Of a stretch of 64,000 nt of DNA, positions 4,901-64,000 are shown piece after piece. Location of the stretch: assembly GCF_000003815.2 (NCBI RefSeq), contig NC_049992.1, positions 5,344,481 to 5,408,480 on the forward strand. The letters run 5' to 3'. This DNA is from Branchiostoma floridae (Eukaryota > Chordata > Leptocardii > Amphioxiformes > Branchiostomatidae). Numbering within the stretch: position 1 is the stretch's first letter; every line of letters begins with the position of its first letter. The position numbers and the translations under genes were made by a program. A model generated the notes under the pieces. The model was not told the DNA's origin, made no database searches, and saw only the letters and a program-made list of their open reading frames with translations.

Positions 4901-5331
4901 ACTTGGAATATAGTGCCATCGTCTGGGACCCGTACACCAACAAAGGGATACAGGCGGTGGAGGCCGTCCAGCGCAGGGCAGCCCGAGTGACCCTAAATGA
5001 CTACCGGCAGACTAGCAGCGTGACACAAATGCTTTCAGACCTGCAGTGGCGCCCTCTCTCCTAAAGGAGGAGGAACGCCCGCCTCACCTTTTTCTATAAA
5101 GTAGTCAACAATAATATTAACATAGACGCCAGCAATATTCTGAAGCCTGCCCAAGGGCGCACCCGGGGTAGTCACGACTTCAAATATCAACACATATTTG
5201 CACGCACCGATATCTACAAACATTCTTTTTTCCCACGCACAATTCCCGAGTGGAATGCCCTGCCTGGCACGGTTGTAAGCGCTCCCAACGTTGAGCACTT
5301 CCGTGCCAGGCAGGCGGCCTGCCCGCCCTAA
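1948..5331 (+). mobile_element. CR1-like non-LTR retrotransposon (2A, PHD finger, endonuclease, reverse transcriptase)
   Basis: One long frame opens at 1948 and stops at 5064 (1038 codons). The same frame then continues for 88 more sense codons to 5331 and keeps a typical LINE C-terminus (RRRNARLTFFYK, PRTIPEWNALP), so the TAA at 5062-5064 looks like one nonsense mutation. Order: hydrophobic N-terminus (FTLFSLTLIILLA), 2A motif DVELNPGP at residues 66-73, PHD-type C4HC3 finger at about 78-137 (CGVC, CCDSCDVWYH, WICCSC), an APE-type endonuclease starting near 200 (NFQSIRNKV, GTETWL, AGDFN, SDHD), and a reverse transcriptase from about 640 (SNYRPVSLTSVCGK, LDFSKAFDTVPH, SGVPQGTVLGPLLF, FADDC). 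CR1 clade members with an N-terminal 2A are known from lancelets and echinoderms. The 3' end lies somewhere after 5331; no poly(A) or target duplication was found. The single stop suggests a recent insertion. Confidence 0.93.
2140..2166 (+). other. 2A ribosome-skipping motif in the LINE ORF
   Basis: Codons 65-73 read GDVELNPGP, a match to the D-V/I-E-x-N-P-G-P consensus, directly after a hydrophobic stretch. In known 2A peptides translation skips the glycine-proline bond at the end of the motif. That would release a short hydrophobic leader of about 72 residues from the PHD-endonuclease-RT protein. Activity is inferred from the motif only. Confidence 0.85.
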
Positions 5332-7962: not shown

Positions 7963-10900
7963 ATGGAGAAACATATGAATCTTTGTTTGCACACAGATGA
8001 CCCTGAAGACGCCGGGCGACGTGCAACATCTCGTTCTTGTCTAGTCCGTGCTATCCTCATTGCTGTAATGATAACGGCCTTGTTTGGTGTTGGAGCTTGT
8101 TTGGCTGCGAACTTCATTGTCATACCGGACAACAAAGCAGACGTCTACCCGGTCAGTCAGGTAGAGAGAGAGGGGGGGGGGGGGGGGAGGGAGAGAGAGG
8201 GGGGAGAGGGAGAGAGAGGAGAGAGAGAGAGAGAGACAGGGGGTGGGATATAGCTGGAAAGACAATTCGAATATTTTTATTTATTCTAATACCTTTCCTA
8301 GCATTAATATGAGGGCGCTACCACTAATCAGATGATGTAACTTTATTTTCAATACTCCATTCAGCTTTACTTCATCACGTTTGTGTAACGTACAACACTG
8401 TTGAAGGGGATTTTAAGCCTGGTTGTCTTTTGTGTAAAGACTACAGCATACGCAACGTCGTCTGCAGCCGAGTCGTTTCCAGTCACGGACATCTCTCGAC
8501 CATCAGAGATGACAACTGTGCTGTGGGATGTCACCCCTGTGCTGTCAGGGGTCAAGGACATGCTGCCACATGTAACGACGCCGAAGCCAGATGTGACAGC
8601 TTTACCGCCAGCTTTGACAACTGTGCATGTGCAGTCTGCTGTCACATCTAGGCTGTCATGTGTCACAACAGTGTCATGGCAGTTTACAACTGCGCAGCCA
8701 GATGTGACAACTGTGAAGCCAGATGTGGCAACTGTGCAGCTAGATGTGACAACTTCACTGCCACATATGACAGCTGTGCAACCAGGTGTGGCAACTTCAC
8801 TGCCAGATGTGACAACTACACTGACACATGTGACAGCTGTGCAACCAGATGTCACAACTACACTGCCACATGTGACAACTCTGCAGCCAGATGCGCATGT
8901 GACAACCTCACTGCCTGAGATGACAACCGAACATGTAAAGGTGACTACTGTGTTCTATTTTGTATTGATTTTACCAAAATAATTCCCTTTAAATGACAAT
9001 GAAATTTATTGCATTAAAGGACATTTTCACCATCATGAAACTTTGACTTACTTTTTGGCGACGCCTCAGGGGCGGAGCCATTCTTATAGTACTGCGATTG
9101 AGTTGCCAGGAATACTAAATATTCCACGCACGCATTCCCTAGGGAATTCGTTTTTGGTAACATCTTGCGGGACCGGCGTTTGCATCTAACATTGGGAACT
9201 GTAATTTGAGTCTTTGGGCATAGCATAGGGCGTAGTTAATATACACAGTTGCAGCTTTTTGAAGATAGTTCAAACGAGTTTTTCTACATTGGCTACATGA
9301 TGCTGGCCTTTCTTTTGCATAGTCTTACTGTGTGATAGATGTGTTGTTTTGTTGTTCATTCGTGTGTTTTGTATCATGCGCATTTGTGTGACCTTTGCTT
9401 CATTTTATTGTATTAGTTTCTTTTCTTTTAGAACTATTTTGTGCTTTTTGTTTGTTTTCCTTTGGTGATATCGGCGCACGCCCCAATTCTTCCGTGACCG
9501 CGTTAGCCAGTGAATTTCTTCTGTAGCCTGAGCCGGGGGGAAGTTCACCTGTGGGTACAAAGAGACAAAATGACATACATGTAACAATGCCATTAACAGA
9601 TCCCATGTAACACATGTTCTTTGTAGCTATACCCATCCTCTGTATAAACAGAGTCATATTTCAGAGTACATTTACAAAATACAAAGGACCTCAATGTAAA
9701 AGGAAAAGTTCATAGAATGTTGTCAATTCATCAAGAAAAACGTTTTCAATGATACAAATGCTTTTCATCAGATTAACAGTTAACGACAAATACACTATTA
9801 TTTGTCTCCAGGTGCTCATATTTTGCACTATAAGACATTATCTTTCACATTGTCCCTGGCTGTGGGTCCTTTCTCTGTAACGAGTTCTTAGTCTACCTCA
9901 CCTTTATGCTCTGAGCAGTGAATTCTTTCTGAAGTCTGCGGGTGGCCATGCTACCTGTGCGAACAGAGATAGAATAGCCATAAATACATTGAAGCCATTT
10001 CTTGCCGTTTACCGAGAAACATATTGCTTTGCCTTTTATGAAAAACAACCGGTCGTTACTGGAATATCGATTCCGGTCTTGTCAAAAAGGAGAGAATATT
10101 ATATGAAGATAAGGCCAAAAAATCCGACGGAACATAACGCCAAGTAGCTAAAACTTCATGTAAACATAAATTACGTGCGTAGCTAAGTGGGCGTATGATA
10201 AGTACAGGTAGACCAGGGGTGTGTGTAAAACAAAAACTGTCCTAGGCCACTGTCCAAGGACAAATGGCGTACGTCGTTCAAAGTGCCTCGTGTAAATAGG
10301 GCCTATGTGACAGTAACCAGTAACAGCCAGCACAACGTACTTTCAAACAAATAAACACGTCATACAAGGATGTACAAGCATAAACGAACAAAGAAAAAAT
10401 CACTTTGAGAAACTGGCAACAAATCAAATCACAACAAGATCGGTACTAAGAAAAAAGAGGGAACAACAAATCATTATCATCACATAACGCATCAAACAAA
10501 AAAATAAATCCTCAAACTCTCATTTGATAAAATAACCAGAGCCTACAACTTACAAGATCAATGCCAACAACATGCCGACTACATTCTGATACGTGTACTG
10601 CAACTCTATAACACTTATCGCTATCTGTAACTTAAGATGAACCTTCACAATTGATACAGAAACTTAGTTGTATGCCCATACGTTATTATTTCCTTGAATG
10701 GTACATGTACCTGGTCGGAACGCGAAAACCCGTTTTTTAATGTAATAATAAAAAAAACAACCACCACCGCATTACCTCCCCACCAATGTGTTGTCGGTGG
10801 TCATATGGTGTTAGAGGCCCACCAGTCCATGACCCACGTGCACGTTCAGGGAGAGAAAGCAATAGTACCACAATTTGCATGCACGATAATTGTACTACAT

Positions 10901-13900
10901 ACTGTAAATCAACAGGCCAGTTCAAATCCTTCCAGATGACTCCGTCACATGGCCATAAAAAGAGTCGTGGTTTCTCGCCCGGCCTTTGTTGTGTCTCCTT
11001 TGAGTTTGTTGAAAAGAACGCGTTCATACCGTCTTTATCTAAAGCCCTGGTCACAAAGCGCTTACGATTTCATGCGATGGCATATTTCGCATATCGTACG
11101 ATGAGCAGTAAATCGCAGCAAAATCGTAAGCAAAATCAGCCATCGCAACGCATCGGATAATGTTCAAATTTTTTCCAGCGTCGAACGATTTCTCACTTGT
11201 GTCTCTTCTGATTAGCCGCCTGACCGCTTTTGCGCTTCTTTAACCAACAAAATGTGGAAATAGCTGTTGAATACCTTCATATGATATCTTTAACTGTAAA
11301 AATGAATTACAAGAGACCATAAAAATATGAGTATTACAAGCAAAAGTTCAAATCAAGCGCGAGTACTGGTATGGTTATCTCGGCCTGCTTGCCGGCTCTA
11401 CGAGTCAGGCTTTTTCGAAGATCGTATCATGATGTGCTATCAACGAAAAATGCCATCATACAAAAATCATATCATAAGCATTATATCATATATATTTCCG
11501 ACTCATAGAGCCTGTCATTCTGTTCGAGTTGTCCCTATGGTTATTACGATGATGGTAAACAAGTCAAGTCAAGTAAACTGACCCGAGACCGACGAGAGAT
11601 GAGTGATCTAATCATGAACTCACGTGCAGCAGTGTAGCGATCAAGCAATTGTCTGCATCACCTGTGCGTGACACTGAACAGTTGCGACTGATATAGTTTC
11701 CCTTTTCGTCAACATCGACAGCATCAGGGAAATAAAACTGAAACCATCACAACATGCTAAAAATTTATGAATCTTTAACCTCATCAGTAGAAAAACATGG
11801 CCGTAAAGAAGTTTGGTATGGGGGCAATAAAAATCGTACGACGATGGAGAAACTTTGAACATGTTCAAAATCCATTTCAGCTCTATTTTTCGTCATAGGA
11901 CGCCCCCCCCCCCCCGATTTACTATGATTTACTGCGATTGACACAGGTACGCTCTTATGACCTCATCGTACGATGCACTACGGGCTTTGTGACCACGGCG
12001 GCATATATTTAAACCATTGCTTCCGATTCTCCCCCGACTTACGACGCACCACGCTTATACCGCGCATCGCAAGGAATCGCAAGGAATAGCTTGTTTTGAT
12101 GTGAGGAAGAAGTTGTGTAGGTCACCACCCCCACCCCCAGCAGCTTGCTCTGCGGAGCATTGTTCCCTTAACAATTCTAAGGAGGATAGCAAAACAGAGA
12201 ACGACTTTCCATCATATTTAGCATGCAGGTGATTTAGATAAATGTATACGTAATAGCATGATGATTAAGCAAATTATGACTTAATTTGAATAATTAATGA
12301 CGAGAATCTGTAATTGGCTATTTGAACAGTGTATGCGATTCAACTGTGCGTTGTTCACCTGCAGCTATTGTACTAGGTACGACTTTGGTACTTTGATCCC
12401 GCGGCTACTGCTGGTGGAGCGCTTGTTGTAGTAAGACAGACGAAAAGCCTCGGCCGTGATGCGTTTGATATGACACGTCTTTGACAAATTTCAAACTGCA
12501 TCCTTCTCCGTATCTATCCATGCTAATTCAAAGCATTGATGTTGTTAGAGGCTCCTTCACCGGCCTCTCTGGGGGCCTACATACCTCGTCCAAGACTGTA
12601 TTACAGCGTGTAAATTGACCTCACCTTACAGCATGCATGACGTCAATAAAACATAATACAGATATTTTTTTATCATAGTTAAAAGACAGTGATGATTACT
12701 TGCACTTTAAGTCATGATTTCTAATGATGACAAGCAAATGAAGACTACAACACTTTTGAACAAAGTTATACGGTAACCAGTCCAGCTACTTACTTCGGTT
12801 AAGACTTCTCAATACCTACTTCAACGAATAAATCCAAACCGTTCCGCCATTACCTTCTTACTAATTCTCACGTCGCCAGTGTTTTAAAAAAAAAAAAACT
12901 TTTTAAGTGTGGGATCGATTGGGAAAATTAAGGGCGGCATTCCATATTCTTGACTTCTCATCAGCTTGCGCTATGTTTGTGTTGGCAGCCTTTCATACAC
13001 CATACCACAGAGATGAAACTGAGCAAGATGGAGGCGATTACAAGGCAGGAAATAACAGCGGCAATGAAAGGTGAGACTGTCGACTCACAATCAAGTTCTA
13101 TGGGCCTGTAGTATTAGGAGCATTATATATTAAGGTCTGTGTGGATTGATGTCAATTCTTTTTATTGGCAAAATATCATCTAAAGAGGGGGTTTCTGACA
13201 ACTGCTATTTTGTTTTTCTTATATTCTGTATATAATTATATTCACAGAAACCGCCTGCGAGGACCACACCTTGCGGCTGTCCTGTCCACCTGGGCAATCG
13301 CTTGTGATAGATGACGCCAACTATGGCCGTACGTCCCGCTCCGTGTGCCCCTGTACAGGCGACTGTGGGAAAACTTACTGTCGAGCAGCGAAGAGTCTGT
13401 CTATCGTATGGAGCAACTGTCAGGGCTTAGAGCAGTGCAACCTGGAAAGTAATCGTCTCTTTGGTGACCCCTGTAGCGGTGTACAGGTTACCTACCGCTG
13501 TTCCACAGGTTAGTACAGTTGTCAACATGTATGTATTTTCTGCCATATTTACGAGGGTTGCCGCCTGTAATCTCCAAGCAGATCCTACGGTAGCATATGA
13601 TAGTATCAAAACCTGGCAGAGGAGTGAAGCTGGTTTAGGAGTGTGTTTTGCTACTTGGCAAATGGACACCTCTTGGCTGACTACACTCCTTGGCCAGTTT
13701 GGTATCTTATGCCATTGTAGGATCTGCTTGGAGTTTAGCCCCCTCCCCTCCTTCGAGATAATTACTTTTCGGTGTATCATAGATTTGTGCGAACGCAGAT
13801 AGTACAGAATTTGCTTCTGAGATTGTGCCTCGCACAGCCTCTTCAAGTCTAGTATCCTGTGTTGATATACTGTAAATGCATTTAAGTTCGCGGGGATTCA

Positions 13901-16900
13901 ATTTCGCGGTAGCGGGAACAAGGGACTTTTCTTCTATGAGTCTTGTATTTAACTGATTTTGATTTGGTAGTGTTAAGCTTAATTTTGTGTTGATCAGATA
14001 GTTTATTACCCCTATGTCAGATTATTTCCATTTCATGTTATATGAATGGTTAAATTAATGTTGATTCATATACATTTTTGCAAAGCTCAGCTGTTGACAA
14101 CTGGAGGGCCCAACAAGATTATAAATTTAAAAAAAAACAACCACATCAGCTGAAACATAAATTCCTATCCCCTAGCCTGCAGTAAACCCTTTGGGATGAT
14201 GTCAGGAGCAATCCCTGATGACAGCATCACCGCATCCTCACACATGGGCCCTGATCACGAGCCTTACCGCGGGAGATTGAACGGAGAAGCTGGAGCGGCC
14301 TGGACCGCAAAAACTAACAACGTCGGGGAATGGATGCAGGTATAGGCGTCGTTAAAAAAAAGAAGAAGATTAAACCCTTCCCGCGCCTGGTGGCGCATAG
14401 GGCGGTGCCCATCTCTGTTTCCTTAGTCCTGGACCACATAACGCAATCACTACAGCAGGGGGCTAGTCCACTGGTAGTGGTGTGTGTTCAACTTCCATTC
14501 TCTTTCCCGAATGCTGAGTGCTAAGCAGAGAAAGCAGCAGGTACCATTTTTATAGTCTTTGGTATGACTCGGCCGGGGATCGAACTCACGACCTACCGAA
14601 TGCAAAGCGAACACTCTACCCACTAGGCCATTGCTTAGGCGTTGTGCTAATTCAAAACATGTTTGACAATGGGAAATTAGCTTCTATATCTAATTGTATA
14701 GAATTGATGGCCTTTAGAGCAAGACCTGCCAAAAAGCTGACACTCAAGCAACTAGATATAATTTTCAGACACATTCAGACATTTCAGATAACATCATTTT
14801 AAGATCTGGTAAAAAAAGTTTTATACCCTAACTATGAACTCGTACCCTGATTATGAATTTTATACCCAAATTATGAATCTGATTGTACCGATATTATGAA
14901 TTGTATACCATATGACTTCGCTGCTAAATTTCAATCTCAGTACATATCATCATGAAAGTTGATATACAATATGCTCTTATAGCATCTCAATTACGTTCTC
15001 TGATCAACCTCCAGATTGACTTGGGTGGCAAGGAGCGCGTTACTGGGACCATCATTGAGCGCATGCGCAACTACGTATACCACAATGGTGGCCGCGGGGT
15101 GACCTCCTACAAACTACGGTACAGTACAGAGGGGACTAACTGGAAACCGTATGCTGACACAGATGGCTCAGAAAAGGTTTCTTGGATGATACTTTTTTTT
15201 TATTTGTTGATTTGTGAAAGCATGATAAAACGATATCATGCATAGGCTGATATTGTGATCACATGCACATACATATTATACAGCACAAAAATTAACAAAT
15301 ATTAGGTAGAATAAAACAAAGCTGTACACTTTTCAAATAGTGGCAGCTGTAACATGCATGATAAGATCATAGTTTACAACTGGATGGAGACAGTGGCACA
15401 GCTGGAAGTATTACTTTTTGATAATTTTTTAGCACTTCCTAATTCAAACATATACGTTTACCTTCCAGGTCTTTCCAGGCAATGCCGACACGAACACCCC
15501 TGTGACCAATCTGTTGGACTACCCCATTGATGCCCGTTTTGTGCGTTTCGTGGTTCAGTCGTGGCAAGGCAGCATCAGCATGAGGGCGGAGGTTCTGGGC
15601 TGCAGTGAAAGTAAGTTTCTGTCATACCTTTCATGGTACAGGATGCCACAGTTTAACCTGCCCATTGATAATGCCATTTAAGTACAATAAAACAAGGTTG
15701 AATAAAGCTATCAACCCCAGTTCCAATCACAAAGTTTAACATTCTTCTCCAACAAGAAGTCGCAAGAGTCCTCTTCATAACTATTAAAAGAAAACAGGGA
15801 TTCCGGTTCTATTTTTATTTCGCTTATTTCCACAGATCTTGGTGTCTGTCAGCCTAACCCCTGTGCATATGCCGGGACATGTCTGGATCGTGCCGGCGAG
15901 TTTGTCTGTGTTTGCCGTTCTCCGTTAAAGGGAAAGAGCTGCAGCATCAGTAAGTTACAATTTAAACTAAGTAAAAAGAAATATTTATGTACGATTCTTG
16001 ATCTGTCTTCAACAAAGGAAGCGTTGCCTGCAGAATTTCGTAAATTTTACCTGCGTCTATAACTTACAAAGATAGTATCTACCAAACTCCACATATCCAC
16101 ATATACATGGCCTCATTTGGTCAATATTGACCATGGCAAAATCCTAATTGATATCAGCCCTACAGCGTCCTCTCTGGCTACACAGTCCTATACGAGAATG
16201 GCAGTCTCTGTCAGATAGGGCATATCTGCAAGCTGACTCAGGTCTGTTGCAGAGCTCTGATTATATAGTAACGCAAGTGTTTTCATAAAAGGCGCATTCT
16301 TCATGTGAGAATGTGAGAATGTTGTTGCCACCCAGAACTACGACGTCATTTCAAGAGGATGAAAATCGCTTCTTAAGACGCTGTATGTAAACGAATGACG
16401 AGAGATATGTTTTATCCCACCAGTTTGTAGCGTGGACGATCCCATCTTCACGTATGATAAATACCGCTGGGGGCTGCCCCGGCTGACGCGACCACCCTTC
16501 ATGTTTGAAGTAAAGGCCGAACGTGACGTCCACGTGGCGCTGTCCTCTCGCCAGGACCAGGACTTGGACGAGATATACGAAATTGTCATCGGTGGCTGGG
16601 ATAACATGCGATCTGTCATTCGCCGCAGCAGGCAAGGCTACAACCATGTTGATGTCCAAACACCCAGTAAGTATGTTTATTTGCATACGTTAAACGTGAT
16701 ACCGGTTTGCGCTTCTTAGTCTTGGTAGTACATCCTTCTCATGGTATTTCTTGTTCGTTCGTAGATATCGTCTCCAAGACTGAGTACAGAACCTTCTGGA
16801 TAATGTGGTCCTCAGACGGAACCATTGCAGTTGGCAGGGGTGATGAGAACTTGCCGTTTATGCTGTGGAGGGACCCTGACCCACTGCCCATCAACTATGC

Positions 16901-17524
16901 TGGACTCAAATCCGACTGGAGAAATGTTGACCGAAAGGTTGGACAGTGGAAACTATGCCGCACCGCTAGGCCTGACGGTAAGGTTGATACCATGTCAAAG
17001 TCTGAACATTTTTGCCTTATAGGTGGTCAAATATATCTTACATATGTGTTTTTAACATCTACCTAGCCAACATCATCATCATGTTATCATGAGTATCTCG
17101 AATGTGCAAGACTATCTCCCTCCATATCCAGTTACTCAAGCAGCTGGATATGAATTTGGAAACAGCCAGACTTTTCAGATGGCATCCAACATCTTCGTCA
17201 GTGACAGAAAACGGGGCCTTCGTATGGAAATTTCCTGAATCCAGTTGCTTGATTAACTGCTTTTTGGCGATAGTGAAGTTTGTCCCTGATTCTATGATCT
17301 AATTGATCACAGATGCTGAATGCCTTGTGGAGCCGGCCATGCGGCATGAGTGTGGTTGGGCGGGGATCACCTCTGACCAGTGCCGTTCGAAGGGGTGCTG
17401 CTACAATACCGCTACTACACGCCCAGAAATACCGTGGTGCTTCCACAGGGCTAAGAAAGGTGGGCTGTATTCTGAACAGAGGTCGGGCTACAGGGCTGCA
17501 GGAAAGCATGTTAAAGCACACTAA
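7963..17524 (+). CDS. Multidomain type II membrane lectin, copy A (Thr-rich stalk, SUEL, F5/8C, EGF, FAMeT, trefoil)
   Basis: Exons 7963/7997-8151, 8440-8940, 13013-13070, 13248-13508, 14176-14339, 15015-15176, 15469-15610, 15836-15949, 16424-16666, 16765-16977 and 17313-17524 join with continuous phase. From the ATG at 7963 they give 752 residues. Order: short N-terminus; membrane segment about 29-51; Thr/Pro-rich stalk 64-230; galactose/rhamnose-binding SUEL domain about 250-336 (SCPPGQ, ANYGRT, FGDPC); F5/8 type C domain over three exons; EGF with CAYAGTCLDRAGEFVCVC; farnesoic-acid O-methyltransferase-like (FAMeT) fold over two exons (YRWGLPRLTRPPFMFEVKA, TFWIMWSSDGTI); trefoil with six cysteines (CGWAGI, GCCY, WCF). 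There is no cleavable signal peptide, so type II topology with an extracellular lectin array is inferred. Every exon except the first has the same order and phases as copy B. A splice acceptor (CACACAG) sits at 7996, so the ATG at 7963 may instead be intronic, with the true 5' exons missing. Intron 2 is 4.1 kb against 0.2 kb in copy B. Confidence 0.82.
8159..8237 (+). repeat. G/GA-rich simple repeat just after the membrane exon of copy A
   Basis: A run of about 19 G followed by GAGA tracts starts seven bases after the donor of the membrane-segment exon. It lies in the intron and is likely to be unstable. Confidence 0.85.
8440..8940 (+). repeat. Tandem Thr/Pro/Val repeat encoding the mucin-like stalk (copy A)
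   Basis: The exon is a coding minisatellite: imperfect units of about 24-30 bases built on GATGTGACAACT encode PDVTT-like peptides (167 residues). Because the unit length is a multiple of three, other frames and the opposite strand also stay open here; those frames are not considered genes. The acceptor (GTGTAAAG before 8440) and donor (AAG before GTGACT) are shared with copy B, where the exon has only 102 codons. Dense Thr suggests an O-glycosylated stalk. Confidence 0.7.
9902..9954 (-). other. Possible short minus-strand exon inside intron 2 of copy A
   Basis: On the minus strand an acceptor (TCGCACAG) and a donor (GTGAGG) bracket 53 bases that encode MATRRLQKEFTAQSIK in one frame. A second stretch at about 9480-9556 begins after CCCACAG and shares a few words (CAGAA, ATTCACTG). 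This could be the start of a small nested gene, but no further exon or family match is visible, so I give it low weight. Confidence 0.2.
11044..11999. mobile_element. Non-autonomous DNA element with terminal inverted repeats in intron 2 of copy A
   Basis: The ends GCCCTGGTCACAAAGCGC (11044-11061) and the inverted GGGCTTTGTGACCACGGC (11982-11999) form imperfect terminal inverted repeats. The interior has degenerate CGTACGATG-like words near both ends and no transposase frame. It accounts for about a quarter of the expanded intron. Confidence 0.55.
12000..13012. other. Rest of intron 2 of copy A
   Basis: No coding or structured element was recognised apart from short homopolymers. From about 12960 to 13012 the sequence is closely similar to the matching intron end of copy B (28262-28310 region). 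Confidence 0.3.
13568..13736. mobile_element. MITE, CTCCAAGCAG family, copy 1
   Basis: Inverted ends TAATCTCCAAGCAGATCCTA and its counterpart at 13717-13736 flank a 169-base element in the intron after the SUEL exon of copy A. Internal words (GGTATCTTATGCC, GGCAGAGGAGTGAAGC) match the element at 19183. Confidence 0.6.
14358..14635 (-). mobile_element. tRNA-derived SINE in copy A only
   Basis: Read on the minus strand, TGGCCTAGTGGGTAGAG (A box, 14630 downward) is followed by GTGAGTTCGATCCCCGG (B box near 14578-14590), a tRNA-like RNA polymerase III promoter. A non-tRNA body extends to about 14358. The host intron is 675 bases here and 463 in copy B, which lacks it. Confidence 0.6.
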
Positions 17525-22690: not shown

Positions 22691-25600
22691 CTAAGCACTG
22701 TGGAAGCACCACGGTATTCCTCCACTTGTAGAACTATCGAAGCAGCATCCCTTCTGACGGCACTGATCCGGAGTGATCCCCACCCAACCACAGTCCTTCC
22801 GCATGGCCGGTGTCACAAGGCACTCAACGTCTGTCAAAAATCAGATCACAAATATTTTAGGGACAAACTTTTTTTCTATTTGTCATTGTTAATCAACTGT
22901 GTGCAATATACGTAAATACTGTGTGGAATATTCGCTGATGTGTTAACATCGTTTTAAATAACTGTCTTCGATTTTAATAAATGTAACACGACAGGGCAAT
23001 TCAGGGCCATCGTCCTGCCATTCTGTACCGTGTAAAGTGAGAAGAAGAAATAAACCATTATATATTTGCTTTTGAACAGACGGAGACAATGTGGCACTGC
23101 ACTCAAGTTAGTAACTTATATTAACCGTGCCACATACACAGTACGGACAGAAGGTAAAGGTAGTATTTTTCTTTAACCTCCCCGACCGAAGTCATATAAC
23201 CATTTTTATACGTGGATGAATTGAGGAAAGTCGTGTTAAGTGCCATTTTACAGCCATATTGCAGCCACTTCTTATCGTCACACTTTGTCTTACGCCTACA
23301 TTGGCACCTGCTAACAACAGGGATGATTGTTTTAGATTGGACCCGTTCTAGAGTATGCTAGTAGTAAAGTATCATTTTTCATTTTGCACATCGATGTAAG
23401 AGGATTACTAACTAGTTCCACAGTGGCAAAAATGTCCAGTCTTTGACTTCTATTTAATTAAGGAGGTCCTTGGTTCAACCTAACCTTCAGGCCGAGCGGC
23501 GCGGCATAGATCCCACCAGCCACGGTTTTTCCAGGCCGTGTTGAGTCCGGCATAGTTGATGGGCAGCGGGTTGGGGTCCCTCCACTGCACAAACGGCAGG
23601 GTCTCCCCACCCCTGCCAACTGCAATGGTTCCGTCTGAAGACCACGTTATCCAGAAGGCTCTGTACTCATTCTTGGAGAGGAGGTCTACAGAGGAACAAG
23701 AAATAACATGAGAAGCATGTACTACCAAGTCTGGTCTGAAGCACAAACCGGTATCACTTTCAACGACTAGCAAGGTATTATAATAGTGGTTCAGTGAGTG
23801 AGTGAGTGAGTGAGTGAGTGAGTGAGTGAGTGAGTGAGTGAGTGAGTGAGTGAGTGAGTGAGTGAGTGAGTGAGTGAGTGAGAGACTGAGTGAGTGACTG
23901 AGTGACTGCGTGAATGAGTGAGTGACTGCGCGACTGAGTGGGCGGGTGAGTGAGTAATCATACTTACCGGGTATTTGGACATCAGCATGTTCGAGGCCTT
24001 GCTTGCTGCGGCGAATGACAGATCGCATGTTGTACCAGCCACCGATGACAATTTCGTACATCGCGTCCAAGTCCCGGTCCTGGGAGGACAGCGCCACGTG
24101 GACGTCACGTTCGGCCTTCACATCAAACATGAAGGGGGGTCCCGTCAGCCTGGGCAGACCCCAGCGGTACGTCGTTTCGCAATGGTGACAGGCATACGTG
24201 TGAATGGAATCACAAACTGTAAGGATATAAACATTCATTTCGTCATTCGTTTACATAGACTTATGTAGTGATTTTTATCATAATCTTTAAGCGACGTCTA
24301 GTTCAGCACGAATAGCAACAGCCTTCTCGCCGAGTAGAATTTATAGACTGCCTCTAATACAGCTCAATTGTATTGTACAGCTACAATGAGCCTTTTATCG
24401 AATTTCAAACCACTTGCATTACGGTTTGACCAGTGACACGTGGAGTCAGTAAGATACTAGATTTGTACAAGTTATAAACGCAGATAGAATTTATGACATT
24501 TTGCAGGTATCATTTTCTTTGTTGAGGAGAGGTCATCAGAACCGTATAGATACAAATTTGATTCATTTCTTCGTGACTTACTGATGCTGCAGTTCTTTCC
24601 CTTTAACGGAGGACGGCAAAGACAGACAAACTCGCCCGCACGGTCCAGACATGTCCCTTCATATGCACAGGGGTTAGGCTGACAGGCACCATGATCTGAG
24701 GTAAATAGCGAAAGAACAATAATACAGGAATCCCTGTTTCTTTGAATGGTTAAAAAGAAGACACTTGTGGCTTCCTGGTGGAGAAGAATGTTAATGATTG
24801 GTGTAAGTGATATTATCAAACCTTTGTTTTATTGTACTTACCAAGAAGCAAGATGAAGTCAAATGTACTTGTTAAAAAGTAAGAGTAGATTGGACGTTTA
24901 TGATAATTGCGCATATGAATGTTTATGAGTGCTACCATTGTTAGATGTTTTTAGTTGTTACCATGTGACCTGTACTTAGCCCAGTGGTGCAGAAATGTGC
25001 CAGAAAGGTCTTCATTCATTTAATGGGATTTCCTATGGACAGGTCAAACTGTGGCATCTGTAAGTTATGACAGAAACTTGCTTTCACTACAGCCCAGAAA
25101 TGGCGGTTATTCGTATCGGCTATATAGATACAGATACACATACAGATTGTGTGCACAGGTTTTCAACGTTGGGGCACGCGGGAACAGGCGGCTCGTGGAA
25201 ACCCGTGCCCACGGTGAGGACGCCTCAGGTTTTACCATCGTGCACAGCGGTGGGAGCTCGTGAAAATTTGCCTTTTCGTGCATTGGCATCCTCCTACGCC
25301 CGGTCCCTAACGGCTAGCTAACAGCCTATTGGGGACTTTAGACACGACTGTGGTCCTAATCGTGGACAGTAACATAAGCTGGGAAGGAGTTTAGCCGGCA
25401 GAGGAGTAACGGGTCAATTTACTCATCTGCCGGCTAAACTCCTTCCCCAGCTTATGTTACTGCTTTATGCCACGGGGGGATTATGCTTGGAGATTATGTG
25501 GTCCCTCTGCGTAGGGGAATGGTGCAGTGTTAGAAACTACAAGGTATTACACTTTCACAGAAACTTACTTCCACTGCAGCCCAGAACCTCCGCCCTCATA

Positions 25601-28600
25601 CTGATGCTGCCTCGCCACGACTGGACCACGAAACGCACATAACGGGTATCGATGGGGTAGTCCAACAGATTGGTCACAGGGGTGTTCGTGTCGGCATTGC
25701 CTGGAAAAACCTGGAAGGTAAACGTATAATGCTAGTTAACCTTTATCCGTGGGGTAACCTATATCCGTTGTTCAAAAACAAGGTATTTAGGGATATTAAG
25801 TCGACGGACCGTAGTTTTAAACTACCGTATTTTGAAATTCGAAAATATTCAAGGAACTACCGATATCTTCTGTCGACTTGGTATCCATAAGTAATTAATA
25901 ACAACGGATATAGTCAACCCCGCGGATAAAGGTGAACTAGCGTTATATATAATTTAGAAAGTTCTAAAATGTAATTTCATCTGTGGTACTGTCTTCATCT
26001 TCAAGCTATTAGCTTTTCATGTATGTTCCAGCTGATAGCTTGTAGGCTATAAACATTAAGATATGTTTATTTATTCTTTGCTTTGTTAACAGTGTAAAAA
26101 AAGAAAAATAACAAGCTATATCATCACAGAAACCTTTTCTGAGCCATCGATGTCTGCATATGGTTTCCAGTTAGTCCCATCTGCGCTGTACCGTAGTTTG
26201 TAGGAGGTCACCCCACGGCCATTATTGTGGTAGCCGCCCTGAATGGTGGTTCCGGTGACGCGCTCGGTACCACCCAAATCAACCTGAAGGTTTATTATAG
26301 AACTCGCATTAGATAAGAATATATTGTTTAAGAATATATTGTCACTATGAGTATACCATGTACTTGCAATTAGCCCTCGGGTACGAACTTGCAAATAAAC
26401 TTCTTCGTTGTGAGCATAGTTTCGTTAAGACATTTACGAGATTGAAATTTAGAAGTGAATTAATAGTTAGGGTATAAAATTAATGATATGGGAAAAATAA
26501 AATTCATAATTTGTATATAAAATTCTTGATCAGGGTACGAATTCATAGTTAGGGTATAAAACCTATTTTATTATCATATCTCTTTAGTGTGCCTGACGAA
26601 ATGATGCTACCTGAAAAGTCTAAATGTTGCACAAATCATATCCAGTTTCTAGATTAACTTCTTTCTGGCTCTAGAGGTCACCCGTTCTAAACAATTAGAT
26701 CTTAAATTTCCGTTATCAAACTCATTTTGAATAAACACAAACATACCTGCATCCATTGCCCGACGTTGTTAGTTTTTGCGGTCCAGGCCGCTCCAGCTTC
26801 TCCATTCAATCTCCCGCGGTAAGGCTCGTGATCAGGGCCCATGTGCGAGGAGGCGGTGATGCCGTCATCAGGGATTGCTCCGGATGTCATCCCGAATGGT
26901 TTGCTACAGGCTAGGGGGAAAGTAAAATCGACTTAAGGTGCCTTGAGATGTGCTTTTAATTTACAATCTTGTTGGTCCCTTCAGTTGTCAACAACTGATT
27001 GCTATCGGAATCCTGCAAATATGTATATAAAATGAACATAAATTTAATCATTCTTATAACATAAAACACACATGATCGAACATAGGGGTAATGAATTATC
27101 TGATCGACACAAAATAAGCTTAACACTACCAAATCAAAATCAATCAATTGAAGAACTCATCACAGCAATAACCGTATAAATAGAACGCAACAAAACATAA
27201 AGAAATTACATGTTACGTTACACAACATTACAAATATGCAAAATAGATTAACATCAGTACCATATGAACGGGCATCTGTCGGAAAATACAACATGTATAC
27301 TAACTTTTAGACGTTCAACCAAATATATCAACACAGGGTACGAGATTAGGGGAGCTGCACGATACAAAATCTCTGAACGAAATTCTGTACTATCTAGTAT
27401 CTGCTTACGTACAAAATTATGATACACCGAAATGTGGTTATCACAAAAATGGGAGGGGGGGGGGCAACCATCGTAAAATATGACTTAAAATATATAACGT
27501 TACATATTGAAAAATGTTCTTACCTGATGTACAGCGGTAGGTAACCTGTAGGTACTTTCCAGTCCCACGACAGGGGTCACCAAACACACGAATACTTGCG
27601 CCCACGGTGCACTGCTGTAAGCCCTGACAGTTGCTCCACACGATGGACAGACTCTTCGCCGCTCGACAGTTCTCATTATTACAGGCGCACTTACAGGGGC
27701 ACACGGAGCTGGACGTCCGGCCGAAGTTGGCGTCATCGATCACTAGCCATTGTCCGATTGGGCATGACAGCCGCATGGTGTTGTCCTCACAGGCGGTTTC
27801 TGTATAGGCGTCGGAGGCATAGTTTTCAATGTCAATTCAACGTATCAGTTCCTTTAAGTAACTCCCCCTCTAGGAGTAGGAGGTAACATTAATATTTGGT
27901 ATGTATTTTTAAGCGGAGCACCACTCACCAAAATTGTATTTAGTTGTTCACAGAAAAGAAAATTTTCATTTTTGGGTCTTTATATCTCTCACTCTCTCTC
28001 TCTCTTTCTCACACACACTCTCTCTCTCTCACTCTCTCTTATATATTCTTGTGTGTTACTCATTTTAGCATTCTAGATTCAATTCAGATTAATATTTTGC
28101 CAATGAAAGGGAATTGGGATCAACCCCCACAAAGCGTACATAAAGCTCCCGTTTCTCCTGATATTACTGGCCCATACATGTACAGCTGGCTTGTGAGGCG
28201 TACCTTTCATTGTCGCTGTTACTTCCTGCCTTGTAACCGCCTCCATCTTGTTCAGTTTCATCTCTGTGGTATGGTGTATGAAAGGCTGCCAACAGAAACA
28301 TAGCGCAAGCTGATGGGAATTCAAGAATATGGAATATCGCCTTCAATTTTCGTAATCAATCCTACTCTAATGAAAAACTTAAACCTCCATTTTCATGGTG
28401 ATGTAAAGGCAATCTAAAGGGACTTTCATTTGGGTCAAAGCAGTATGAAATATGACACAGTAGTCACCTTCAAATGTTTGGTTGACAACTCGGACAGTGA
28501 GGTTGTCACATGTGTCAATTTTGTTGTCACATGTGGCAGTGTAGTTGTCACATGTGGCAGTGTAGTTGTCACATCTGGCTGCGAGGTTGTTACCTGCGAT

Positions 28601-29067
28601 GACACAGACTGCACAGTTGTCATATTTGGCAGTAAAGTTATCACATCTGGGTTCAGCGTTGTTACCTCTGACAGCACAGCGGTGACATCAGACACTGCAG
28701 TTGTAACCCCTGACATGCCAGAAGGTGGAGGGGTGTGCGTGTTCGGGAACAGCCACGTGGTGTATGCTGTAGTCTTTACACGAAAGTATTTTACAAGTTA
28801 ACCATAATCAAAATTCCTTACAACGTGGCCACTACCCCTCAGCCAATCAGAGCTCTTCAATTACTGTGTTTATATCCCAATAGTGCAGAAAAGTGTGGTA
28901 CTATGAAAAATGTGTAGTACTATGAACTCATTTTCATAAAATAGAACCACGTATTCTTAATAGTACCACACGTTTTCTGCACCACTGTCTCGCTCTTACA
29001 TCTCTGGTGACCCACCAGATCGTATTTTCTTTTTCCAGTGCATTTATCGGCCTGCAAAGGTCATTCA

Positions 29068-29146
<79 letters not shown>

Positions 29147-32100
29147 GATAGAGAGAGAGAGAGAGAGAGAGGAAGGAAGAGACAGAAAACTGTAAGAATT
29201 GTAGTCTTTAAATCTTTATCTGACTGACCGGGTAGACTTCTGCCTTGTTGTCCGACGTGTCAGCGAAGAAAATGGCAAAGCAAGCTCCTGCACCAAACAA
29301 GGCTGACATTACAACAAAAACGACGACAACACGTTTTAGGCAGGAACGGAAGGTCACCCGTCGCTCTGCATCTTCAGGGTCATCTGTGTGAAAATAAACA
29401 AAGGTTCAAACAAACAAAAACGAAAATAAGTATTCAGATCTTTCTGAGTTTCTCTATTTGACACCTTGTGAGGAAACAACACTCGTGCGAATTACCACGT
29501 ACAGTGATTTTGATGGCTAGAAAAAAACAAAATATTGTGATGCCTTAAATGTAAATGAGACAACTGCGCAATATGATGATATTAAGGTGATAACAATACT
29601 ATTTATGCAACGTACTGCGTAATGTCCCCCTGCATGACCGCTTTAAATGTCCATCTTCAGCCTATAATTTGTCTTTTCACCCAAAAATGAATGATTCTAC
29701 AATTTACATCACGCTACAACTTAACGTTTGGTGAAACGCGTCTTCTATGATATATTAGAATCAGTTCAAGAGTGCTTTTAGATCGGTACAATTTGAAAAT
29801 AAAGACCAAAGTTTCCCCGATACACCCAGTTTTTTTTTGTCATAGGCGACTAGGGTTTCAATTTCTTTTATCTTTCAGGAACAACATGTTTAATATTGTA
29901 TCACAATCTTCAAAAGATAACCAAGCCGAAATTAGTCTCTAGCGTATGGCGTAATTGGAAATGTTAGAAATTCAACGGAGGTGCTGCTATGCACATTTTG
30001 GATGTATTGTTGAAAAAGGTTGCAAAACATCATGGTAAAGTTGACTATAGCCATAACAAAATTCAGACTTTCCTCTCAGACTAATTATTCATTTTCATAT
30101 GATATCCCAGAGTGGTTGTTAGTAAAATCTTTTCTAACGCGGTAAAACTCCAAAGCATAACGTTACACATTTCGCTGACGTATTATCATTGTGCTGTTGA
30201 ATTTCTAGTAATGTAGGCTTGATTTACATGATATCATTTAAGCTTCTTTAAAAACACTTATTTTGTTTTTAAGTATGTCAAATTTTATCCAACTGTGTCT
30301 CGTATCTAATAGTTTGCAGTTTGCACTTAAAAAGCAAGAAAGGATCGTTCGTTGCTTATTTGCACCGCTATTTATTGGCCACATCTGATGGAGTTGTGAT
30401 CTAAGGTGTATTGTTACATAGACTGAATAGAAGCAATTACTTGAAACTTATTCAACAATCATCAAGATCATAATTTCCACCGCTTCTTGAATAATACTGA
30501 CATGAAAAAGTATAATGATTGCATAGCAATGTCACTGGTATCATAGTGCTGTACAATGGTATAAAGACACCGAAATGTTACGAAGAGAAGATACCTTTGT
30601 TGTCTTCATCTTGTTGACCACTACGTTCAGAATTGTGGTACACGTGCTTTTCAGGGTCGCTATTAATGTGGTTAGCAGCATAGTTGTCAGCTATTCTTTC
30701 TCTAGCTGCAGAAAAAACAGCAGTATCGTTATATGTTTTACAATATCTATAATGATAATAGGTTGTTTATTGATTGCTGTTTCATCACTCACTGAATTCA
30801 TCGCAGCGCCGTGAGGCGCTAAATTTCGTATTTAGGCATTAAAAACATAATGAAATAATGAGAATAATAACAGGTAAAACATTTATAATCACATCGCACA
30901 ATGCAGCTCTTGACTAATTAACAAAATATCTTTATCTATAAGCTACCCACTACCTACTGAGTATATACGTACATATGTACATATATGTTTTATTAATATA
31001 GAGATAGAAACTCATACCATTGTTGATTACAGATGATTTCATAACTATCCTGGATGTTGGGAGATTTGTCGTTTATTGTTTCCAATTGCGTAAAATTTTA
31101 TTTAATCGGAATAAGCATTAATATTATTTGTTTAACTGGCATCTGATTCAATTATTTAGATACGTAGTTACTAATAACTAGCGAATGAGGAAGACCATAG
31201 CAATGTCACTGACATAACAATTTTGTAAACTTATATAAAATTGTTAACATACAAAATTTAAGATAAGACAAGATACCTTTGTCTTCAGCCTGCCAACCAC
31301 AAGTTTCAGTATTGTCATACACGTGGTTGTTAGGATCGCCATTGTCGTCAGTAGTAGCTTTCAATTCTCTAGCTGCAGCGAAAACGGTTATACTCACAGT
31401 TACACGAAGTCGATTCTTAAAAAAAACAAACAGCAACAGCAGAGTCCTCCCCAGAGGATGGAATAACGGAGGCCCCCCACATTGTATGGGAGTCATATAT
31501 TATGACTAGCCCAGCTCCAACATACTACTTTTGAAATGTAGTGTGTTTCTTCCCTATTTTCTTGGTTAGTTTTGCTAAAATTCATGAAAATTCACAGATT
31601 TTTTGTGCCAAGTGGCATCACTTTTCCAGTCGGCATTGTCTGCAAAAACTTGTGAATGGGCATGATGAAAACAATAGTCATTTTGCCACTTCACAACTAA
31701 GGAATCACTATAACATGTTATACTTGTAGTATTTGACACACTTTGTCAATGCAAAATGAACCCATATTCATGAAAGCGCAGCGCGTTGGTTCGAGTTATT
31801 TTTGCCAGCCCCTCCACTATACTAAAAAATTCTGGGGAGAACCCTGAATAGTAACAGTTACACGCAATTACAAAGGTCTTCAGGTCGTAAATCCGATACT
31901 CCTATCTATGCACCTTTGACCATGTTTATTTGATTAACATTAACGGTCTTCGCTTGACGAGACACGATCAAAAGACTGCATGTATATTAATGTTTGATAG
32001 TCATATTTTGGAAATAAAATTAAAGTAACCTTAACATTTTCCCCTTCCACCTCAAAATTAAAAAAAAATACAAAATGGCGAATTTGCGGTACAGTTGCGA

Positions 32101-34525
32101 ATTCGGCCCCCCTCCAGATGATATCCTCTGTACAACCCAGAACAGATCATCGAATTGAGCATGCGAAGAAAAAAAGGTGGACATATTATATGAAGAAAAG
32201 TTGCCTTCATTATGGAATCTAAGTGGTCAGGAAGTTTGTCATTTATTTTTCTATTTATTCATTTACTTCTGTATTCTTTCACCAGGGTAAGCTACCATCA
32301 GTGACTAGCACTGCTTTTCAAGGAAGCCCTGGGTACACGTACGCACTATATTTACATTGCACAACATATCGTCAAACACAAAATCATGTCTTTACTCATG
32401 TACATATCCGTGCCAAATCATGAAGAGTTGGAGGTCAGAACAGATGACTGAACACGCAGAGTATGACATAATAAACAATAGATTCTTCATTTTTGTTCTT
32501 TCATATCTTTTCTTCGACCTTGGAATCGACAATGTCATTCTATGACATCAGTATTCGTTTCCCGGCACATTTTATCAGTCATGGCGTATGTTTGGTCATT
32601 TTTAAGCTGCTTTGTACGATTTGCAGTGAAACGGTTGAATTTTTGAAACGGCCAAAAAGTGATGCACGCGCGGATGTCATCCATATAACGTTAGATTATA
32701 ACCAATTCAACATCAGCTTACGTTGTTCTATTCTAATTGCTTTGTAGACTTTAATACGAGAAGGATGGACATCGAATAAGAAAAATAGTATTTGGTACAA
32801 ACTAGAAGGTCACGAAAGAAAATGAACCTAATGTTTTCAATGAGCCATATTAGTTATTACTTTATTTCCATGAAAAACATATGCACGATTAAGGGGTGTT
32901 GTGAAATAGAAGAAAAACACCAAACCCCTAATTTAATCTTCTGTGCAGCTATTGAAACATGCGCGAGGTTTCGATGTTTGATATATGAGAGAGAAAAAGC
33001 AATCAAATCACGATGCATGAAAAATGATATAGCAGCCAATCGCGACTGATTCTTGCTGAATATTGATATCAGGTCATCGCTCCTTAACACTTTTCATGCT
33101 CGTGTCTACAATATGGCTTTAAAAACCTCATAGGAGACGTTAAAATCGGTATTTTATCATGTAAAATGTACAAATACACAAAGTATCTGATAAAAATATC
33201 TTCAACTGTACGCACGTTAGGTTGGTTATCTGCCATAACCAGAACAATAACGAGTGATTTCTGCCTTTTGTTCCAACATTTTCAAAACCTTTTCACCATC
33301 TAAAATGTATAACCTGTGAATCGATTTCTTATATTGTTGACTTTGTACTAAATTAATGAATACATTCTGGAGTATTCCAAGGAAATGTTCAACCTCCTTG
33401 CGTATTCTAATGTGTTAGAAATATTTGCAACGTAGATAATTTGTATTAGTTTCTAAACTGTTCTGTCATGGATTGATATTTTTTCTTAAATATTAGAACA
33501 TTCAGTAAATTGGTCATTGGGTTGAAAATGAAGCAATTCCCAGATCCCTGCAAAGTTTATCTGTGTGCCATAAACAGACGGCTCGCTACAAAAGAGCCAC
33601 AAGTATCTAGTTGAAAATTAAAAACACATCAAGCAAGACTATCCCACCTTCTTTTATGTGGAAAATTATCCAAATCTAAACACAAATTGCTCTGACAGTA
33701 CTCTTATCAGATAGATATAACTCCCTTGGAAATCAGTTTGTAGGGACTACACTGAAAAATTAATAAACAAAAAAACATAAGCTGCCCGATATGTGTTTGC
33801 CATCAAATTATCATTGATATCAGTAACATACCTTTATCTTGTTCAGAAGAAGAGGGTCCAGTGTAGCCCCCTTCATCACTTCGGCCTTTTAGATTTTGCT
33901 TGGGAGGAATCGGCTTACAAATCTCGTATCCGGACGTCTTTGGGGCTGAATAGAGCACGGCATTGGGCTCTTCTTGATATTTGGCTTGAACAGCTTTGCT
34001 TTCTGCCTGTTGTGCTGATTCATTTTGATCTGTTTTGTCTCCCTGCTTGTAGAGCTTTGACGCAATCGTGTTCCCATCCGGACCAGTTTCGTCAGCAGAC
34101 GTTTTCCGAGCTAGCTGAGGAGAATCCCTGTCACCTGTCGTGTCGCCGTAAAGTTTTGACGTAGACTTGAGTCCCTCTTGACCTGTATCGTCATTACGTA
34201 TTTTTCTAGCCTGTCGAGGCGATTCTTTTTTATCAACAATGTCTCCATAGAGCCGTGACATCAACTTGGAATTTTTGTGTCTTGCGCGCTGGTTGTCATG
34301 TTGTCCAGCAGCTCCGACTGTTGTGTCCCTGTACAATGGTGAAGTCTTAGTGGTGGATTTTTGTTGGTCAGGTAGTCCATCTCCGTTTCCATCCTGACCA
34401 GTGTTGGGAAGGACGGGCACCTCGGCATTAGGTTCGATACAGTCGGTAGCTAACATCTCACACTCTACGGTGTTCTGGTACTGGTGCTGTATTTCCTGCA
34501 CTGCATTCTCCTGTTTCGTCTGCAT
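22691..34525 (-). CDS. Multidomain type II membrane lectin receptor, copy B, with tyrosine-motif cytoplasmic tail
   Basis: Minus-strand exons 34525-33832, 31372-31277, 30705-30595, 29383-29229, 28773-28468, 28261-28204, 27799-27524, 26910-26747, 26283-26134, 25710-25569, 24695-24582, 24216-23968, 23685-23485 and 22830-22691 join in continuous phase to 951 residues. Residues 1-300 are hydrophilic and cytoplasmic by inference, with repeated SxLYxD motifs and two YxN motifs. The membrane segment is about 318-340 (VVVVFVVMSALFGAGACFAI). Outside follow a Thr/Pro stalk (353-454), SUEL lectin (474-565; ANFGRT, GDPCRGTGKYLQVTY), F5/8C (566-717), EGF (718-755), FAMeT-like fold (756-905) and trefoil (906-951; CGWVGI, GCCFD, PWCF). 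SUEL and F5/8C domains bind glycans or phospholipids in known proteins; FAMeT-type modules occur in many extracellular chordate proteins with unclear ligand. The donor after residue 905 is the weaker GTTAGG. No known protein with this whole order comes to mind, so no gene name is given. Confidence 0.85.
23793..23882. repeat. (TGAG)n in a short in-frame intron of copy B
   Basis: About 22 TGAG units lie in the 282-base intron between the two FAMeT exons. On the coding strand the intron is open and a multiple of three, so retention would add SLTH repeats to the protein. Confidence 0.9.
25060..25100 (-). repeat. Partial duplicate of an exon end (F5/8C) in copy B
   Basis: CAGAAACTTGCTTTCACTAC followed by AGCCCAG repeats, with few changes, the donor end of the third F5/8C exon at 25558-25585. 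It is too short to encode a domain and looks like a tandem partial duplication about 500 bases downstream of the exon on the coding strand. Confidence 0.45.
25369..25497. mobile_element. MITE related to the CTCCAAGCAG family, copy 3
   Basis: AGTAACATAAGCTGGGAAGG and its inverse near 25446-25462 form a strong hairpin whose core (GGAGTTTAGCCGGCAGAGGAG) resembles the cores of the elements at 13568 and 19183. GCTTGGAGATTATG at 25485 resembles their termini. It sits in the intron between the F5/8C and EGF exons of copy B. Confidence 0.55.
26341..26403 (-). repeat. Dispersed repeat (GCCCGAGGGCTAATTGCA family)
   Basis: The minus strand here reads GTTTATTTGCAAGTTCGTAC then CCGAGGGCTAATTGCAAG. The same word occurs on the plus strand at 45859-45900 and 63065-63120, with a weaker form near 53553. 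The family type is unknown. Confidence 0.6.
27981..28040. repeat. CT-rich simple repeat in copy B
   Basis: Alternating CTCTCT/ACACAC tract in the intron upstream of the SUEL exon. Confidence 0.9.
29066..29181. repeat. GA simple repeat next to the membrane exon of copy B
   Basis: About 115 bases of GAGA in the intron just downstream of the membrane exon. Copy A has a GA tract at the equivalent place, but relative to the gene the purine strand is opposite, so the two probably arose separately. Confidence 0.9.
30595..30705 (-). CDS. Cytoplasmic exon with VYHN motif (copy B, exon 3)
   Basis: A 111-base phase 1-1 exon with the same acceptor (CTGCAG then CTAGAGAA) and donor (AAAG then GTATCT) as exon 2. 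It encodes RERIADNYAANHINSDPEKH followed by VYHNSERSGQQDEDNK. Being symmetric in phase it can be skipped without shifting the frame. Confidence 0.7.
31277..31372 (-). CDS. Cytoplasmic exon with VYDN motif (copy B, exon 2)
   Basis: A 96-base phase 1-1 exon between CTGCAG and GTATCT encodes RELKATTDDNGDPNNHVYDN and about ten further residues. It shares borders, leading RE and the H-V-Y-x-N core with exon 3, so the two are an exon duplication. Y-D-N fits the pYxN docking consensus of Grb2-type SH2 domains. Confidence 0.7.
32488..32690. repeat. Partial copy of the GGATGTCATCCATATAA element
   Basis: Words TGCTTTGTACGATTTGCAGT and CGCGGATGTCATCCATATAA match the right half of the terminal-inverted-repeat element at 40528-41414. 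It lies in intron 1 of copy B. Confidence 0.5.
33832..34525 (-). CDS. First exon of copy B: cytoplasmic tail with LYxD repeats
   Basis: The ATG at 34525 opens 231 codons ending at a clean donor (GATAAAG then GTATGT). Imperfect repeats of about 35-40 residues carry SPLYRDT, SRLYGDI, SKLYGDT and SKLYKQGD, each followed by a charged SPxxARK or similar stretch. Then come VLYSAP, GYEICKPIPPK and GYTGPSSS. KPIPPK could serve as an SH3 ligand. The phase-1 exit matches the next exon. No signal peptide is present, which supports an intracellular location. The repeats could be phosphotyrosine docking sites; this is inferred from motif spacing only. Confidence 0.75.
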
Positions 34526-58605: not shown

Positions 58606-58772
58606 AGATGACGTAACCTAGCCTGAAAAGTGATGAGATGTTGCATAGGAACGTTTTACCAACATGCCATCCTGATGTGTCATTTTTGTTGGGTCATGCT
58701 TTTATGTGATTTGTGACGAATTATTCTGAACCAAGATGTAACTTCTATTTCTTACACAGCCATTCGACCATC

Positions 58773-63639: not shown

Positions 63640-64000
63640 CGGCTTGGCTATGATTATCTGTTAAAGATTACGAACGAATATATCCAGTCGGTGCTTCAGT
63701 AGTAACTGCTTTTTGGCGAAAACTTGAATTAAATATTCTGCTTATATTTTGGGGAAATTATGCATAATAATTTGTACCAAAGGGACCGTTATTTGAAGTA
63801 CATACTATTATTTATTAGTTATTAACACTCATAAAACAGTGAAAGTATAGATAACTCAGTGAAAAGTCATACAACCTGAGAGAAACATGAACATGTGGCC
63901 TGCTGAAGGTGAAGTTTTAACCCGTCTTTCTGGCGCAACTAGTTTTCCGTATACCGGAAGTGACAATGAGCAGACCTGTAGCGGTGTCATGGGTCACGAC
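63640..64000. promoter_or_regulatory. Upstream region of DDAH
   Basis: This must contain the DDAH 5' untranslated region and promoter on the minus strand. No TATA box, initiator or further exon can be singled out. Confidence 0.3.

Follow-up and report, generated by a model that had tools for sequence, protein, structure and literature searches.

The modules in the ectodomain of the receptor gene described here are known individually from several proteins. SUEL domains occur in the latrophilins, which are adhesion GPCRs, and in CSL3, a secreted rhamnose-binding lectin, while F5/8C domains are found in coagulation factors V and VIII, neuropilins and lactadherin, which are type I or secreted and carry other sets of modules. 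Comparable in overall design are some type II membrane receptors. As far as their available descriptions go, the type II C-type lectin receptors (the Dectin-1 kind) share with the present gene, termed gene A, both topology and the possession of cytoplasmic tyrosines, and FIBCD1 is described, in the accessible part of one report, as a tetrameric type II endocytic receptor for chitin (PMC9994688). A related stock of modules is deployed in the footprint proteins of sea stars, where, in the portion of the published account available, FAMeT domains are present in Sfp1, 3, 4a and 5, EGF repeats in Sfp3/4, lectin domains in Sfp1 and 2, and FA58C/galactose-binding domains in Sfp10/11 (PMC9382459). In lancelets the rate at which new domain pairs arise is reported, again in a source available in part, to be unusually high, with phase 1-1 exons as the main route (PMC4284660); if the DNA is that of a lancelet, a new order of modules is by itself expected.

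Gene A lies on the minus strand of a 64,000-nucleotide stretch (the window; C14:5344481-5408480) and was rebuilt from the sequence with an ATG at 34525 and a stop codon ending at 22691. Its 14 GT-AG exons match in phase, contain no internal stops and encode a product of 899 amino acids, so that the exon series proposed in the preliminary description is confirmed to the exact coordinate (Table 1). The product comprises, in order, a hydrophilic tail of 317 residues (put earlier at about 300), a membrane helix, a Thr-rich stalk, and SUEL, F5/8C, EGF, FAMeT and trefoil modules. The hydropathy profile displays a single peak (windows over residues 312-343, best 2.51), which is preceded by basic residues and by no earlier hydrophobic stretch. 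These features are consistent with the type II anchor suggested previously, and indicate that the gene A product is probably a type II single-pass membrane protein.

Among the known systems, the latrophilins and CSL3 have the SUEL domain in common with gene A by sequence but lack its tail and module order; the sequence likeness to the coagulation factors, neuropilins and lactadherin is through the F5/8C domain. FIBCD1 is, like gene A, a type II protein with one recognition head, a likeness drawn from the accessible description of FIBCD1, whereas its fibrinogen domain is absent from gene A; FIBCD1 is the nearest receptor in mode of working for the fibrinogen-bearing relatives considered below. 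Gene A differs from the C-type lectin receptors in having no C-type lectin domain and no ITAM/ITIM-like excess. The footprint proteins share FAMeT, EGF, lectin and FA58C modules with gene A but are secreted adhesives, and a membrane helix, a cytoplasmic tail and a trefoil are unmentioned in the available part of their description (PMC9382459). No publication on this architecture was found by title or abstract among the literature matches listed, in keeping with the earlier statement that no named protein is known to have this order of modules.

Two details of the exon model require comment. A candidate optional exon of 52 nt (29051-29000, minus strand) lies in the interval between helix and stalk, and is in frame with a longer stalk exon; the resulting 15-exon model is also open (974 amino acids). 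The 14-exon model was preferred because the 52-nt exon has poorly scoring splice sites and no recognisable counterpart in gene B, the second copy described below. There is some doubt about where exon 5 begins, as the acceptor scores favour the short form in gene A (8.1 versus 2.9 for the long form) but the long form in gene B (8.1 versus 3.0).

Table 1. Exons of gene A and of the part of gene B inside the window (positions are those of the window)
Feature	Positions	Strand	Content
Gene A exon 1	33832..34525	-	initiating ATG; bulk of the cytoplasmic tail, with LYxD repeats and YQN; copied in gene B
Gene A exon 2	31277..31372	-	tail, VYDN; gene B copy reads VYVD
Gene A exon 3	30595..30705	-	tail, VYHN; duplicate of exon 2; gene B copy reads VYDN
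Gene A exon 4	29229..29383	-	basic stretch and membrane helix; gene B 59% identical
Gene A exon 5, short form	28468..28593	-	Thr-rich stalk; start at 28766 in the long form
Gene A exon 6	28204..28285	-	stalk
Gene A exon 7	27524..27799	-	SUEL lectin domain
Gene A exon 8	26747..26910	-	F5/8C part 1
Gene A exon 9	26134..26283	-	F5/8C part 2
Gene A exon 10	25569..25710	-	F5/8C part 3
Gene A exon 11	24582..24695	-	EGF, Pfam score at cut-off
Gene A exon 12	23968..24216	-	FAMeT part 1
Gene A exon 13	23485..23685	-	FAMeT part 2
Gene A exon 14	22691..22830	-	trefoil and stop codon
Gene B exon 4	7997..8151	+	membrane helix
Gene B exon 5, short form	8683..8940	+	stalk
Gene B exon 6	12989..13070	+	stalk
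Gene B exon 7	13248..13508	+	SUEL
Gene B exons 8-10	14176-14339, 15015-15176, 15469-15610	+	F5/8C
Gene B exon 11	15836..15949	+	EGF
Gene B exons 12-13	16424-16666, 16765-16977	+	FAMeT
Gene B exon 14	17313..17524	+	trefoil, 23 residues longer than that of gene A

The module order given in the preliminary description was borne out by matches to five Pfam families. In the 15-exon product of gene A the E-values were 3.4e-18 for SUEL, 1.1e-31 for F5/8C, 4.2e-38 for Methyltransf_FA, 9.1e-15 for trefoil and 2.8e-4 for EGF, the last corresponding to 21.5 bits, exactly the Pfam cut-off. All five families scored above cut-off in the gene B product, the SUEL domain (PF02140; curated cut-off 31.4) reaching 66.2 bits in gene A and 46.9 bits in gene B. 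Neither a C-type lectin domain nor a fibrinogen C-terminal domain was detected in the Pfam scan of the two genes at the thresholds used. Compared with known sequences, the gene A SUEL domain matched CSL3 at 1.2e-24 and latrophilin domains from 2.8e-15, and in alignments with rhamnose-binding lectins its ANFGR, FGDPC and KYL motifs are intact or almost so. The SUEL domain of gene B has lost a run of residues including KYL, and stretches of the predicted binding region are partly gone.

The earlier attribution of glycan or lipid binding in known proteins to every one of the five modules goes beyond what is established for FAMeT and EGF. The Methyltransf_FA, or farnesoic acid O-methyltransferase, label on gene A is likewise best taken as a name and not as an activity. 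The accessible part of one report holds that methylating capacity has never been reliably demonstrated for the FAMeT protein group, and that the group may be non-enzymatic (PMC10015273). Sequence searches for FAMeT returned no relative in the PDB at E up to 1 and none in the viral or prokaryote contigs searched, and the predicted fold of the region had a mean pLDDT of 39.6 for a contiguous translation that included the intron, and was set aside. Exons for SUEL, F5/8C and FAMeT are common in the host genome, with at least 76 matches (E ≤ 0.001).

Gene B is an inverted copy that lies tail-to-tail with gene A on the plus strand, with 11 exons inside the window (7997-17524). Read from the window alone, gene B would be a receptor without a tail, an interpretation ruled out by a search of the 513 Mb host genome, which located tail exons 1-3 past the left edge (C14:5339226-5341166, or -5254 to -3314 relative to the window) on the same strand and in order. 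Gene B is thus complete, its 14 exons encoding 932 residues with the phases of gene A and with no stop or frameshift. Intron 3 of gene B contains an open retrotransposon frame (1930-5061, plus strand) with matches to a PHD finger, an endonuclease and a reverse transcriptase.

The two genes are 77% identical over 852 codons. The dN/dS ratio between them is 0.50 for the whole gene (interval 0.41-0.64) and 0.52 for the tail (0.35-0.81), with values of 0.47 for the helix exon, 0.37 for SUEL and 0.23 for F5/8C. The intervals include 1 for the stalk (0.69), EGF (0.86), FAMeT (0.61), trefoil (0.50), exon 2 (0.48) and exon 3 (1.24). By this comparison the entire unit, tail included, has been duplicated and its frames kept open. 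That genes A and B are recent duplicates in decay, without function, is very improbable. Such decay would be in line with the loss of one YxN motif and of SUEL residues from gene B, with the seemingly incomplete gene C (see below) and with the domain intervals that include 1, whereas the absence of any stop or frameshift across the 14 exons of either gene and the whole-gene dN/dS, whose interval lies below 1, argue against it.

The remainder of the window contains several other coding features. Immunoglobulin-type exons and tyrosine kinase exons make up a gene upstream of gene A (35973-43780, minus strand). The catalytic loop of tyrosine kinases usually reads HRDLAARN; in this neighbour it reads HGDLAARN. 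A C2H2 zinc-finger frame is present at 58713-59717 (plus strand), and an exon at 63220-63660 (minus strand) matches eukaryotic DDAH at 24.1 bits, the cut-off being 23.

As to whether tail and ectodomain are parts of one gene, the window by itself left doubt. Exon 4 of gene A has no in-frame ATG ahead of the helix and must be preceded by an exon that ends in phase 1; when the interval 34.6-29.4 kb was scanned for such exons, only exons 1, 2 and 3 and overlapping variants of them were listed. Exon 1 sits within an open frame of 252 codons, and 600 kb of simulated intron-like sequence contained no open run above 185. The codon scores of exons 1-3 lay above the 99th percentile of length-matched intron windows, although the introns used for the percentile had also trained the background, and their splice scores were within the best 0.2-1.1% among all GT or AG on the strand. 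An alternative that assigns exons 1-3 to a different gene, with the ectodomain gene beginning elsewhere, would account for the lower third-position GC of the tail exons (0.35-0.44 versus 0.50-0.70 in the module exons), for the capacity of exon 1 to end as its own 252-codon frame, and for the lack of significant likeness between exon 1 and exons 2 and 3 (shuffle p 0.10 and 0.36). The alternative is, however, difficult to reconcile with the helix exon that has no start codon of its own, with the kinase exons upstream, which terminate at their own stop before exon 1, and with gene B, in which all 14 exons are retained with their order and phases. A separate tail gene was also rejected on the grounds that gene C and three fibrinogen loci preserve the order of tail then helix, and we give it almost no credence. 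The preliminary description had named transcripts that assign the tail exons to a separate gene as the finding that would overturn its single-gene model; what was found instead was a second locus with the same 14 exons, and the full-length gene B is, short of a cDNA, strong evidence that tail and ectodomain form one gene.

A search of the host genome with the tail as query produced 21 matches (E ≤ 10), among them the exons of gene A itself and those of gene B. Seven further first-exon tail frames were read (C10a, C10b, C10c, C14, C9, C15a and C15b), together with about 22-26 kb of downstream sequence per locus (about 45 kb for C10a). At C10a, which we term gene C, the tail is followed by an exon with VYEN, a helix 43% identical to that of gene A, a stalk, a SUEL domain (54% identity to gene A) and two of the three F5/8C exons (61% and 58%); in the next 17 kb no match to an exon of gene A or B was better than E 0.4, and the later modules are absent. 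At C15a, C15b and C9, by contrast with gene C, the tail and a juxtamembrane exon (HYENM in C15a, HYEDI in C15b and C9) precede a different helix and fibrinogen-like exons, all ordered on one strand, recalling the fibrinogen head of FIBCD1. Two Fibrinogen_C matches in C15a, at 24.6 and 39.2 bits, exceed the Pfam cut-off of 22, while the fibrinogen-like calls in C15b and C9 are based on similarity to C15a; of the three loci, only C15a was read as having a Ser/Thr-rich stalk. Reading by eye, the tail exons of gene C and these three loci end in phase 1, the helix exons are 1-0, and the fibrinogen exons start in phase 1, matching the backbone of gene A, although the end of the mid exon of C9 is not clean. 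Within the 22-26 kb downstream of C10b, C10c and C14 no recognised helix or head was present. No relatives of the gene A tail were found in the viral contigs searched.

Some further features of loci with related sequences were noted. A tail frame on C14 near 8.36 Mb (L012, 7483-6536) contains six LYGD repeats, four of which read SHLYGDK. On C10 near 2.40 Mb (L010), two tail exons are arranged head-to-head about 1.5 kb apart (5994-5404 and 7530-7883), and the plus-strand frame of the pair has a stop directly after its repeats. A gene-A-like helix exon, a Thr-rich stalk and a SUEL domain lie on one strand at C16:15111153-15127441 (L032, L033), and further SUEL exons are scattered over 15.10-15.21 Mb of C16. 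At C3:3748760-3763347 (L034, L035) FAMeT exons share a strand with a tandem pair of F5/8C units and lie about 10 kb downstream of them.

The gene A tail contains 12 tyrosines. The repeated LYxD motif of the preliminary description occurs three times, compared with 0.05 in shuffles, an excess that is partly due to internal repetition within exon 1. The YxN motif, counted twice before, is present three times (residues 16, 250 and 286), a mild excess over the 0.79 expected (3.6% of shuffles); a pair of these sites occupies exons copied from each other (exons 2 and 3). In gene B eight of the 11 alignable tyrosines are kept, three are substituted and the twelfth falls within a deletion; two of the three YxN patterns are retained, one juxtamembrane site having changed from VYDN to VYVD. 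As 211 of 281 tail residues are identical between the two genes, tyrosine is no better kept than the average residue. Across the family, each of the nine tails carries two to seven copies of [LIV]Yx[D/N], compared with 0.07-0.17 in shuffles. Tyrosine is also the best-conserved residue type, at 67% of aligned pairs, ahead of Ser (55%) and Asp (52%), a figure to be read in the light of an aligner that favours tyrosine matches, repeats that are not independent, and tails picked by their likeness to that of gene A. YxxPhi motifs (Y..[VILM]) are at chance level in the gene A tail (one observed, 1.39 expected), and on this count a tail of the ITAM/ITIM/YxxPhi type was rejected.

Related tails behind different heads, together with the shared [LIV]Yx[D/N] repeats, make it likely that one unit, either the tail alone or the tail with its helix, has been used repeatedly and combined with two or more kinds of head. 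A more specific proposal is that these tails constitute an undescribed tyrosine-repeat signalling cassette, built of [LIV]Y[G/E]D repeats and membrane-proximal Yx[N/D] with motifs other than ITAM or ITIM, and linked within one animal genome, through phase-1 exons, to differing type II heads (SUEL-F5/8C-EGF-FAMeT-trefoil in one case, fibrinogen in the other). We put this forward tentatively, as a reasonable proposal with somewhat under an even chance.

How such receptors might operate can be outlined. Genes A and B would encode type II single-pass receptors in which the Thr-rich stalk bears the compound head outside the cell. The head (SUEL, F5/8C, EGF, FAMeT and trefoil) would most likely bind sugars or lipids, whether on microbes, mucus or neighbouring cells. 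The inner tail, long and probably disordered, presents spaced [LIV]Yx[D/N] tyrosines and, near the membrane, Yx[N/D]. Binding of a multivalent ligand would cluster the heads and bring the tails together, whereupon their tyrosines would probably be phosphorylated by a cytosolic tyrosine kinase. YxN is the motif bound by Grb2-type SH2 domains, and among the SH2 adaptors that the phosphorylated tail might recruit, a Grb2-type interaction with YxN is the first candidate. This scheme, with its reusable tail, is the best explanation we can offer, and we regard it as about evenly balanced between right and wrong. The earlier interpretation of gene A as a pattern-recognition or adhesion receptor, with a tail that may signal through phosphotyrosine, is partly supported.

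Adhesion is the main rival to the signalling model because secreted adhesives of sea stars and sea urchins draw on the same set of modules. On that account the proteins would be type II adhesion or endocytic scavenger receptors whose heads hold mucus, matrix or food, the tail serving in scaffolding or trafficking and its tyrosines not being phosphorylated signals. The recurrence of SUEL, FA58C, EGF and FAMeT in the echinoderm adhesives, as given in the accessible parts of the two reports (PMC9382459, PMC10057474), the endocytic role ascribed in its available description to FIBCD1, a type II protein with a fibrinogen head (PMC9994688), and the lack of any special retention of tyrosine between genes A and B are all consistent with this possibility. 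Sorting-type YxxPhi motifs are not in excess, however, and unless tyrosine has a specific role the recurrence of [LIV]Yx[D/N] in all nine tails is difficult to account for, so we consider adhesion or scavenging appreciably less probable than signalling. It is also conceivable, but improbable, that the ectodomain is mainly shed at the stalk and acts, once secreted, as an agglutinin or adhesive of mucosal surfaces, with the membrane form as its precursor. The mucin-type Thr-rich stalk would suit such a product, as would the trefoil, a module of mucus-associated secreted peptides, whereas a secreted product would have no need of a conserved tail of 317 residues.

As a type II multi-module receptor, gene A is in itself of a known kind, and the occurrence of related tails behind different heads is more surprising than its new module order. 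Gene A also appears to set a FAMeT domain within a membrane receptor. The best-known lectin receptors with signalling tyrosines are those of vertebrate immune cells. If the signalling model is correct, a family of related tails behind unrelated heads would show how exon shuffling can put such receptors together in a different animal lineage, and its tail peptides and heads form a defined panel with which this can be tested.
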